A stretch of DNA of 64,000 nucleotides from Planifilum fulgidum (lineage in GTDB: Bacteria; Bacillota; Bacilli; Thermoactinomycetales; DSM-44946). The stretch lies in contig NZ_FOOK01000006.1 in NCBI RefSeq assembly GCF_900113175.1, positions 1-64,000 on the forward strand, written 5' to 3'. The notes below the pieces were generated by a model. It saw nothing but the letters and a program-made list of their open reading frames with translations, had not been told where the DNA came from and did not search any database. Below are positions 49,681 to 53,018 of this stretch, piece by piece (within the stretch, counting starts at the first letter, position 1; every line of letters starts with the position of its first letter). A program made the translations under genes and the position numbers.

Positions 49681-51594
49681 TTGGAGCCCCTCACGCATCT
49701 GCCGCCGTCCCTCGTCCCGTCCTGGGAGCGAAGCAAGCGATACGGGGTGGATCCCCGCAGGGCGAACAATGAGCTCCTTCCCAAGGGCGAGTTGAAGGAT
49801 CGGAAGGAACAGATGAAGGAATGGCTCAACGCCGCTTCGGACATTTTCGAGCAAATGTACGGCATGCTTCGAAAATCGCCGTACATGGTCATCGTGTCGG
49901 ATCGGGAGGGGTACGTCATCGCCACCTGGGGGGATCCCCCCTTTACCGACCGGGCGAGGAAAGTGTGGCTGGACGAGGGTGCCAACTGGCACGAACGGAT
50001 CAAAGGAACCAACGCGATCGGCACCGCCCTCGCGGAACGGCAGCCGATCAGTGTGGTCGGGGAACAGCACTATTGTGAGGAAAACCATTTTCTCACCTGT
50101 TACGCCACACCGCTTTACGCACCGACGGGGGAACTGCTGGGCGTGCTGGATATCAGCGGCGACGCCCGGATGCACCACCCCCACACGATGGGGATGGTGC
50201 TGACCGCCGCCCAGGCCTGCCAAACCCGGCTGCTTTTGCAAAGCGTCCGGCGGGAACTGGTTCTCACCTTCCGGGAAGCGGACACGCTCGCGGAAGGGTA
50301 TGGAAGGCCGCTGATCGCCGTGGACGCCAACGGGCTGATCTCCCGGATCAATCAGGATGGCGCCCGCTTGCTCAACACGCCTCAGGCGGAGTGCATCGGA
50401 CAACCCCTCACCCGCTGGTTCGAGCCGCAGGATGCAAAGGCGCTCCTCTCCCTCAAGGATGCCGCCGAATTGCCCGTAAAAGCCCCTTCGGGAACGTCCT
50501 GGATCGCCCGTCCGGTGCTGGATGAACGGAAACGAACCCACCGCGTCCTGCTGAGTCCCCCTTCGGCGTCCGAACGGAAAAACGCCGCCCCGCCGTCCGT
50601 CCCCCCTGAAGAGACGGTTCGCATTTCATTGGAAAGGGGAATCGCCTCCTGTCCCAAATTTCAGAAAGCCCTCAAACTGGCCATCCACGTGTCCCGCACC
50701 GATGCCACCATTCTTCTCCGGGGGGAAACCGGAACCGGAAAAGATCTGGTCGCCCGGGAGATCCACAAGCGGAGCGGCCGAACCGGTCCGCTGGTGGTCG
50801 TCAACTGCGGAGCCATCCCGGAATCGCTTCTGGAAGCGGAACTGTTCGGTTATGAGAAGGGCGCCTTCACCGGAGCCCGGAACGGCGGACACCGGGGAAA
50901 ATTCGAAGCGGCCCACAAGGGGACGCTCTTCCTGGACGAAATCGGCGAAATGCCCCTGTCCTCCCAGGCGGTCCTCCTCCGGATTCTGGAGGAAAAACAG
51001 GTCACCCGGATCGGCTCCAACCGCCCCATTCCCGTCGATGTCCGCATCATCACCGCCACCAACAGGGACTTGGCCCGGGAGGTGAGGGAAAACCGCTTCC
51101 GCGCAGATCTCTATTACCGGATCTGTGAAGTGGAGATCCATCTGCCTCCCCTTCGGGAACGATCCGATCTCTTTCTGCTCGCCGAATACTTTCTGGAGCA
51201 GGTATCCCGCGAGTTGAACATCGACCCGGTCCGCCTAAGCGATGAAGTGCGCGAAATGCTTTCGCGTTATCACTGGCCCGGCAACATCCGGGAACTGAGG
51301 CAAGTGCTGCGCCAGGCCGTCTTCCACGCCCATTTCGTGCGGGGATCCTCCGCCCTTTCCGCCGAAGATCTGGTTTTTCCCCAGGCGCAAGCGGGCAAGC
51401 CGGATGCATCTTCCCACTCCGTTTCCCTGGAAGAACAGGAGGCGGAAACCATCGCCCAAGCCATCCGGATTTCCCGGGGCAATCTTTCAAAGGCGGCCCG
51501 GATGCTGGGAATCGGCCGGACCACCCTGTACCGGAAATTGAATCGCTATCCCGGGCTGAAAAACATCCGGGTGCAGCACCAAAGGCACGGATAA
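49681..51594 (+). CDS. Sigma-54-dependent transcriptional activator (AcoR-like)
   Basis: 637 residues. GAF-type sensor at ~60-190, PAS-like segment at ~205-300, AAA+ domain from ~315: Walker A GETGTGKD at 348-355, sigma-54 contact loop GAFTGA at 394-399, Walker B GTLFLDEIGEM, R-finger region ITATNRDLAREV, then a Fis-type helix-turn-helix near the C-terminus (ISRGNLSKAARMLGIGRTTLYRKL). TTG 49681 follows AAAGGAGG. In Bacillus AcoR drives acetoin use. No -24/-12 promoter or acetoin gene is evident next to it, so the target is unknown. Confidence 0.9.
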   Translation: MEPLTHLPPSLVPSWERSKRYGVDPRRANNELLPKGELKDRKEQMKEWLNAASDIFEQMYGMLRKSPYMVIVSDREGYVIATWGDPPFTDRARKVWLDEGANWHERIKGTNAIGTALAERQPISVVGEQHYCEENHFLTCYATPLYAPTGELLGVLDISGDARMHHPHTMGMVLTAAQACQTRLLLQSVRRELVLTFREADTLAEGYGRPLIAVDANGLISRINQDGARLLNTPQAECIGQPLTRWFEPQDAKALLSLKDAAELPVKAPSGTSWIARPVLDERKRTHRVLLSPPSASERKNAAPPSVPPEETVRISLERGIASCPKFQKALKLAIHVSRTDATILLRGETGTGKDLVAREIHKRSGRTGPLVVVNCGAIPESLLEAELFGYEKGAFTGARNGGHRGKFEAAHKGTLFLDEIGEMPLSSQAVLLRILEEKQVTRIGSNRPIPVDVRIITATNRDLAREVRENRFRADLYYRICEVEIHLPPLRERSDLFLLAEYFLEQVSRELNIDPVRLSDEVREMLSRYHWPGNIRELRQVLRQAVFHAHFVRGSSALSAEDLVFPQAQAGKPDASSHSVSLEEQEAETIAQAIRISRGNLSKAARMLGIGRTTLYRKLNRYPGLKNIRVQHQRHG

Positions 51595-51700: not shown

Positions 51701-51799
51701 TCACAGGCCTCCCACAAACACGAAAATGGTCGCGATCACCAAGAGGAAGATCAGCAGACGACGCCAGCTCGCAAGATAACCATAACCGCTGTAGGACAT
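51701..51799 (-). CDS. YjcZ-like sporulation micropeptide
   Basis: 32 residues: MSYSGYGYLASWRRLL, then one hydrophobic helix ending VFVGGL. A Gly/Tyr-rich start followed by a single helix is the hallmark of the YjcZ family of small sporulation-associated membrane peptides; the short size fits. GGTAGGGAG lies directly upstream. Identification rests on pattern only. Confidence 0.6.
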   Translation of the reverse strand: MSYSGYGYLASWRRLLIFLLVIATIFVFVGGL

Positions 51800-51906: not shown

Positions 51907-52836
51907 CTAAAACAGACTGAGCTGGATCGGCTCCTCCGGGATCCCCGCCCCGCTTCCGGTTTCCCGCTCCGAAGGGGAGGCCCCTTCCCTCACCGCTTCA
52001 TTTTCGATGCCGGCATCCCTCATGTGCCGCCGGATCCGCGCGAAAAGCTCCGCCCGGTACTCATCGGGCGGATAAGCCCCCTCGTACAGCCGGACCAGGC
52101 GGGGATACTCCCGCGGAAAGGCGGTCTGAATGCGGCGGAAAAACCAGCTTTTCACGGCCGGTCGCAACCGGAGCACGGAGGGCACCACAAAACGCGCGCC
52201 GCATTCCCGCGCCGCCTTCATGTACGATCGAAGGTGTTCATCGGAGTCGGCAAGGTACGGCAGGATCGGCGCCAGAAACAGGCCCGCCGGAATCCCCGCC
52301 TCGCTCAGTTTCCGAACCGCCTCCAGGCGCTGTTTCGGATGGGGGGAGGCGGGCTCCGTCAACCGCCACACCCGTTCGTCCAGGGTGCTCAAACTGATGT
52401 TGACCGAGGTGAGAACCATTTCCCGGAGAATGTCCCTGTCGCGAAGGATCAGGGGAGACCGCGTGGTGATGCTGGTCGGTATCCGAAAATCCCTCAGCAC
52501 CTTCAATATGGATCGGGTCAGCTCCCATTTCGCCTCCACCGGCTGATACGGATCGGTGGCCGTGCCCACGGCCACTTCCCCACCCTTCCACTTCCTCCGT
52601 TTCAGCTCCCGATACAGCACCTCCGCCGCATCCCGCTTGACGATGATGTTGTGCTGAAAACTGTCGTCGGCGTGAAATCCCAGGTAGCTGTGGGTGGGCC
52701 GGGCATAACAAAAATGACACCCGTGGCTGCAACCGCGGTACGGATTGATCGACCAGCGGAAGGGCATGCCCTCCACCCGGTTCAGCACCGACACGGGACG
52801 TTTGGGAAAAAGCCGCCGCGGCGTCCGCCCGGCCAT
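51907..52836 (-). CDS. Radical SAM protein (SplB/Rv2578c group)
   Basis: 309 residues. The iron-sulfur cluster motif is YRGCSHGCHFCYARP (CX3CX2C) near residue 40, then DPYQPVEAKWELTR and LILRDRDIL and the radical SAM barrel. This COG1533 group includes spore photoproduct lyase relatives but lacks a proven reaction. ATG 52836 follows GGGGTGATT; an ATG at 52860 has no ribosome site. The protein ends in IQLSLF, which matches the bacterial sliding-clamp binding pentapeptide QLSLF. Confidence 0.85.
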   Translation of the reverse strand: MAGRTPRRLFPKRPVSVLNRVEGMPFRWSINPYRGCSHGCHFCYARPTHSYLGFHADDSFQHNIIVKRDAAEVLYRELKRRKWKGGEVAVGTATDPYQPVEAKWELTRSILKVLRDFRIPTSITTRSPLILRDRDILREMVLTSVNISLSTLDERVWRLTEPASPHPKQRLEAVRKLSEAGIPAGLFLAPILPYLADSDEHLRSYMKAARECGARFVVPSVLRLRPAVKSWFFRRIQTAFPREYPRLVRLYEGAYPPDEYRAELFARIRRHMRDAGIENEAVREGASPSERETGSGAGIPEEPIQLSLF

Positions 52837-53018
52837 CGGAATCACCCCGAATGCGAACATTTGTTTCTAATATACCATAACCCTTTTTTGTTTACCACTA
52901 ACAGAAAACTAACCAAAAAAAGGGAGAAGTGTCACGGGCAGAGGCCTTCTTCCTGTCCCGACCGGCAAATCGAACCGGTCCGCTTTTAAAATCGACCGGC
53001 AATTCGCCCATTTCCCCC

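Follow-up and report, generated by a model that had tools for sequence, protein, structure and literature searches.

Why should a radical-SAM protein end in a peptide of the kind by which bacterial DNA polymerases and repair proteins bind the β sliding clamp? The question is raised by a minus-strand gene of Planifilum fulgidum in the window (the whole stretch of 64,000 nucleotides that was analysed), whose product a sequence-only reading had taken for a relative of spore photoproduct lyase (SPL) coupling DNA repair to replication. We propose, with a probability of about 0.74, that it is a damage-inducible radical-SAM repair enzyme of the SPL fold, which is tethered to the β clamp by a flexible C-terminal tail.

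Gene and predicted protein

The locus contains the following features:

52860-51907, minus strand: open reading frame of the radical-SAM protein as listed (317 aa, ATG at 52860, TAG stop)
52854-52867, minus strand: candidate LexA (SOS) box GAAACAAATGTTCG (reverse complement CGAACATTTGTTTC), matching 13 of the 14 positions of CGAACRNRYGTTYC
52841-52848, minus strand: ribosome-binding-like GGGGTGAT before the ATG at 52836, read directly from the sequence
52836-52834, minus strand: second Met codon, the likely real start, which would give about 309 aa
52708-52731, minus strand: CxxxCxxC motif of the [4Fe-4S]/SAM site (C44, C48, C51), invariant in 43 aligned proteins
51925-52005, minus strand: variable, probably disordered linker, residues 286-312 (15% identity, low pLDDT)
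51910-51924, minus strand: clamp-binding-like pentapeptide QLSLF, residues 313-317, recognised by sequence and conservation

The frame is open for 317 codons on the minus strand, and its TAG stop (51907-51909) directly follows the codons for PIQLSLF (51910-51930), which confirms the C-terminus originally reported. Because GGGGTGAT precedes the ATG at 52836 and the initial ATG of the listed frame lies within the LexA-type box, translation probably starts at 52836; the protein would therefore have about 309 residues, and the box, being upstream of this start, would lie in the promoter region. Promoter prediction gave no sigma-70-like promoter ahead of the gene. The product matches the radical SAM profile PF04055 with 68.1 bits (cut-off, 29.5 bits), and a search of the 3.38 Mb genome (62 contigs) returned one match.

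Downstream of the gene lies a 32-codon frame, MSYSGYGYLASWRRLLIFLLVIATIFVFVGGL (window positions 51701-51799, minus strand), which had no match in a Pfam search and resembles the tiny YjcZ-type sporulation membrane proteins. A gene for a GAF/PAS sigma-54 activator with a Fis-type helix-turn-helix (49681-51594, plus strand) converges on the radical-SAM gene. No conserved operon partners were seen by eye at eleven loci with longer flanks, where some of the frames are spurious.

Homologues and their phylogeny

Many relatives lack the gene: of 61 genomes searched, 31 gave a match, and in 12 of these, besides its own genome, the match was close. Matches were found in 56 of 348 genomes of the window's phylum (loci taken for 50 of 61 matches), in 112 of 299 Pseudomonadota (110 of 112), 53 of 151 Chloroflexota (50 of 56) and 41 of 119 Acidobacteriota (40 of 42), these three phyla being named after the titles of the seed records. 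Furthermore, 16 loci came from mixed genome contigs, 6 from 35 plasmid records and 4 from 10 phage records. Among the control genomes, that of Caulobacter vibrioides gave a hit with the PA0069 profile. C-termini were collected from 306 loci, leaving 298 rows after removal of 7 duplicates and 1 open frame, and a single FastTree tree was calculated for these rows from the core columns only and midpoint-rooted. The P. fulgidum protein falls with the Rv2578c-family protein of Tsukamurella and the PA0069-type protein of Sinorhizobium into one clade of 223 members (support 90).

Recurrence of the clamp-like tail

According to two clamp-binding papers (PMC3716654, PMC13254535), QL[S/D]LF is the clamp-binding consensus and terminal positions are usual, in agreement with the sequence-only reading; QLSLF at residues 313-317 fits the clamp-binding pattern Q-phi-x-[L/M]-[F/L], of which a six-residue form also exists. 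We scored a relaxed pattern, Q..[LM][FLWIY] or Q[LMI].[LF].[LIFMV], within the last 14 residues. It is present in 198 of the 241 distinct homologous rows scoring at least 150 bits and in 15 of the 57 rows below 150 bits, while shuffled tails and internal 14-residue windows match at 1.56% and 0.16%, respectively. Within the clade 190 of 223 members from at least five phyla carry it (shuffled tails of clade members, 1.6%), compared with 23 of 75 rows outside. Stricter definitions give the same picture: the published consensus fits 105/223 clade members, i.e., over half of them miss its exact form, versus 13/75 outside (shuffled tails, 0.4%); with M allowed at position 2 the numbers are 135/223 versus 18/75 (0.5%), and for Q-x-x-[LM]-(x)-[FL] they are 172/223 versus 22/75 (1.75%). 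Among the 33 clade members lacking the relaxed pattern there are several near misses (QLALADL, QLPLAS), and some have nothing similar.

Of the 198 rows meeting the relaxed pattern, 195 have L at position 4, and at position 5 there are 111 with F and 42 with L; among 43 hand-picked representatives, 42 have Q at the site of Q313 and 40 have L at that of L316. Variants such as QMSLL, QADLF, QLALPI and QLSLPI occur. The motif or a variant of it terminates all 13 close rows (E<1e-75, counting the own protein); absence from close homologues, which would have refuted the original reading, was thus not observed. No single observation speaks more strongly for selection on the motif than the contrast within nine proteins of the same order (own included): their cores are 55-79% identical and the terminal five residues 88%, whereas mean pairwise identity in the linker is 15%.

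Chance can be excluded as the origin of the PIQLSLF end, judging from this recurrence, the shuffled tails, the identity contrast between linker and motif and the rarity of the pattern elsewhere. Of 1583 other frames of at least 200 aa, 12 have the relaxed pattern (frames were taken from stop to stop, many not being real genes), and at least two of these 12 are genes of the family that the filter had missed. Among the window's 294 stop-to-stop frames with 100 aa or more, one other carries it; this frame has 112 aa and ends ..QPALLPGGDRRRL.

In the clade, the motif is carried by 104/108 Pseudomonadota, 34/45 Chloroflexota, 18/25 Acidobacteriota, 6/10 rows of the window's phylum, 13/13 relatives, 9/16 rows from mixed genome contigs and 6/6 from plasmid records (four actinobacterial, two proteobacterial). 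The expectation that the pentapeptide would be conserved across COG1533 thus held in the Rv2578c/PA0069-like clade and, beyond it, in some side branches and was rejected for the family as a whole: the motif was seen in none of 30 genuine SPLs (30 loci out of 41 listed matches), in 6 of 77 closed frames of viral paralogues (the best 80 of at least 365 relatives, 3 open frames being dropped) and in the above-mentioned 23 of 75 rows outside the clade. Motif-bearing rows outside the clade include L067, L070, L285 and L293, with endings such as KQLTLF or KQLSLF, which suggests that the tail is present on other COG1533 branches too; the putative clamp tag may have originated repeatedly.

The distant COG1533 paralogues L067, L068, L070, L282, L285, L293 and L014 end in QLSLF, QLTLF or QLKLF. 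Clamp-like tails were also noticed on a few radical-SAM paralogues of phages or viral contigs (L302, L382, L404 and L425, with QMSLFE, QASLFEGEK, QLELW and QMGLL), and none was present on the one archaeal virus protein fetched (L304).

LexA-type boxes

CGAACRNRYGTTYC is the B. subtilis-type LexA consensus, and LexA may well bind the candidate box that resembles it at 52854-52867. Three box types were scored, GAACN4GTTY, GTTCN7GTTC and CTGTN8ACAG, of which the latter two are LexA-box types known in Pseudomonadota. Any of them, counted in any lineage, precedes 147 of 221 clade genes versus 3 of 74 genes outside. The box type tracks lineage within the clade. GAACN4GTTY occurs there in 12/13 relatives, 7/10 phylum rows, 20/45 Chloroflexota and 0/108 Pseudomonadota; the Pseudomonadota have GTTCN7GTTC in 64/108 (1.4 expected) and CTGTN8ACAG in 28/108 (0.4 expected). 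Boxes are rare in the Acidobacteriota of the clade (2/25), and the alpha type is found in 4/45 Chloroflexota.

Counting only motif-bearing rows, 12 of 14 relatives have a GAACN4GTTY-type box at a comparable distance (0.57 expected), as do 17 of 35 Chloroflexota (0.27 expected) and 5 of 17 rows of the window's phylum (0.17 expected); none of the 27 Acidobacteriota and none of the 104 Pseudomonadota with the motif has one. Among rows without the motif, GAACN4GTTY is present within 350 bases in 3/32 of the phylum (0.37 expected; two of these three, L054 and L056, are inside the clade), 2/12 Chloroflexota (0.07 expected) and 1/16 relatives (0.5 expected). Independent pairs gave no signal of motif and box changing together along the tree (median p 0.625).

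The P. fulgidum genome, which encodes both LexA and DnaN, has 27 distinct sites of a looser box, with 30 strand hits versus 22 for the reversed control. Among 20 other sites chosen by hand, the same box type precedes three recognisable SOS-type genes, namely lexA, a Y-family polymerase gene and a YolD-like gene; of the remaining 17, several are inside frames. As the excess in the genome is small and three of the 20 sites precede recognisable SOS-type genes, it is the conservation across species that carries weight. One Y-family polymerase behind a LexA-type box (L309, G000:C2 near 28136) has an internal QMDLF.

SOS control of SplB-like genes is already known. As reported in the respective papers, SplB-like genes of alpha- and beta-Proteobacteria have LexA sites and had been assigned to SOS regulons by 2012 (PMC3323433), SplB-like COG1533 genes belong to the SOS network of Bacteroidetes (PMC8565304), some operons pair SplB-like genes with ImuB-C genes (PMC3765255), and the table of the Streptomyces venezuelae LexA regulon includes a 'Radical SAM protein' (PMC9380542). 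The SOS-regulated splB genes (PMC3323433, PMC8565304) are likewise COG1533/SplB-like genes with LexA sites, but their descriptions, in the parts available to us, mention no clamp motif.

Fold and relation to spore photoproduct lyase

An AlphaFold2 model built from the 43-row alignment has a mean pLDDT of 89.6 and a confident core, with values below 50 for residues 291-308 and a mean of 56 for the last block; the motif is thus predicted to sit in an accessible, flexible segment. Structure searches with this predicted model placed SPL best in both cases (E 1.2e-10 in one). The top match aligned over 261 residues with Z 20.7, an rmsd of 3.2 Å and 15% identity; six SPL entries rank first (Z 20.4-20.7), and the next family follows at Z 17.2. 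The matches also include PFL activating enzyme, RlmN and viperin.

The kinship with SPL that had been assumed is therefore borne out at the level of the radical-SAM fold, but the family tests for SPL failed (TIGR04070, 17.4 versus 400 bits; PF20903, 19.6 versus 27 bits), and hence the spore photoproduct should not be assumed to be the substrate. In the solved SPLs the catalytic cysteine besides those of the cluster is Cys140, which serves as hydrogen donor. BLASTP puts Thr100 opposite the position of the SPL cysteine, hhalign aligns this stretch differently, and the only cysteines among the columns conserved to at least 90% in the 43 proteins are C44, C48 and C51 of the cluster. The protein is therefore not an SPL, and SPL chemistry is not supported; with an SPL-like fold that lacks conservation of the additional SPL cysteine, it probably differs from SPL in chemistry and substrate. 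Furthermore, the P. fulgidum genome has a separate gene for a genuine SPL (G000:C10:44433-45446, L346; 621 bits), which indicates that the gene in the window does not encode the spore enzyme, and the 30 SPL loci differ from it in having neither the tail nor a GAACN4GTTY-type box.

Over most of its core the protein matches the Rv2578c and PA0069 families best (COG1533, 'SplB-like'), which belong to the same clade. Since the scores are below both curated NCBIfam cut-offs (NF038135 for Rv2578c, 269.1 versus 430 bits; NF033668 for PA0069, 244.2 versus 360 bits), the protein represents a sister lineage rather than a member of either named family. Most of the sampled members of this clade share the clamp-like tail, and many share the LexA-type boxes.

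Discussion

In the model that we favour, LexA would repress the gene until DNA damage lifts the repression. The core (about residues 10-285) would form an SPL-like radical-SAM barrel whose [4Fe-4S]/SAM site generates a 5'-deoxyadenosyl radical, and the flexible C-terminal tail would tether the enzyme to the β clamp. The promoter box and the terminal tag, two unrelated signatures, lead to one and the same context: the response to damage at replicated DNA. We regard clamp binding as very likely and a role in DNA repair as likely. In the original reading, which as a whole is partly supported, the clamp tag is strongly backed by conservation, and the link to DNA damage gains independent support from the boxes. 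PMC3716654 and PMC13254535 name E. coli Pol II (QLGLF), UmuC (QLNLF) and RecB (QVEMEF) as clamp clients. These share with our protein the peptide pattern and the DNA-damage setting, but none of those named is a radical-SAM protein, and for the present protein binding is predicted.

It is also conceivable, though improbable, that the tag binds the clamp and the enzyme does not repair lesions, acting instead as a fork-control or clamp-competing factor or as a modifier of nucleotides or RNA. DNA repair is suggested only by fold, boxes and radical-SAM site, and among the enzymes matched at this level of fold similarity are some with peptides, RNA or nucleotides as substrates (PFL activating enzyme, RlmN and viperin); moreover, the toxin SocB is described as blocking replication via a clamp motif. 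However, the best structural match is SPL, an enzyme acting on a DNA lesion, and a mere competitor would not need the many invariant columns of the core.

Much less probable is that the terminal Q-L-x-L-F docks to a partner other than DnaN or acts as a proteolysis signal. C-terminal hydrophobic residues can indeed serve as protease signals, but a free C-terminus seems not to be needed, because 39 of the 187 clade rows with a recognisable motif extend at least two residues beyond its fifth position. Q at position 1 and L at position 4 vary least, and five- and six-residue forms both occur; the clamp consensus published in PMC13254535 shares these features. Finally, that a short hydrophobic tail has simply been inherited without function, as the relatedness of the species and the mere 24 changes needed by parsimony on the tree could suggest, is scarcely credible and already contradicted by the sequences, since the linker has decayed to 15% identity beside a motif at 88%, and shuffled tails and other frames rarely match.

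In open-licence PMC full text, we found no report linking the sliding clamp to the COG1533/SplB-like family. According to a 2016 archaeal review (PMC4929162), the substrate of the archaeal SplB-like enzymes is unknown, crosslinks having been suggested, and SplB-like genes adjoin nreB in some archaeal genomes, NreA being a partner of PCNA. We would put at even odds the broader idea that an SPL-fold family in at least five phyla comprises an unrecognised class of β-clamp clients, released by LexA upon damage and carried by the clamp to replicated DNA, which directly reverse or open a non-spore lesion there, e.g., a crosslink. If the proposal is true, the enzyme would be, to our knowledge, the first of the radical-SAM type with a demonstrated role as clamp client, and the clamp tag would tell where the enzyme works, namely on replicated or gapped DNA.
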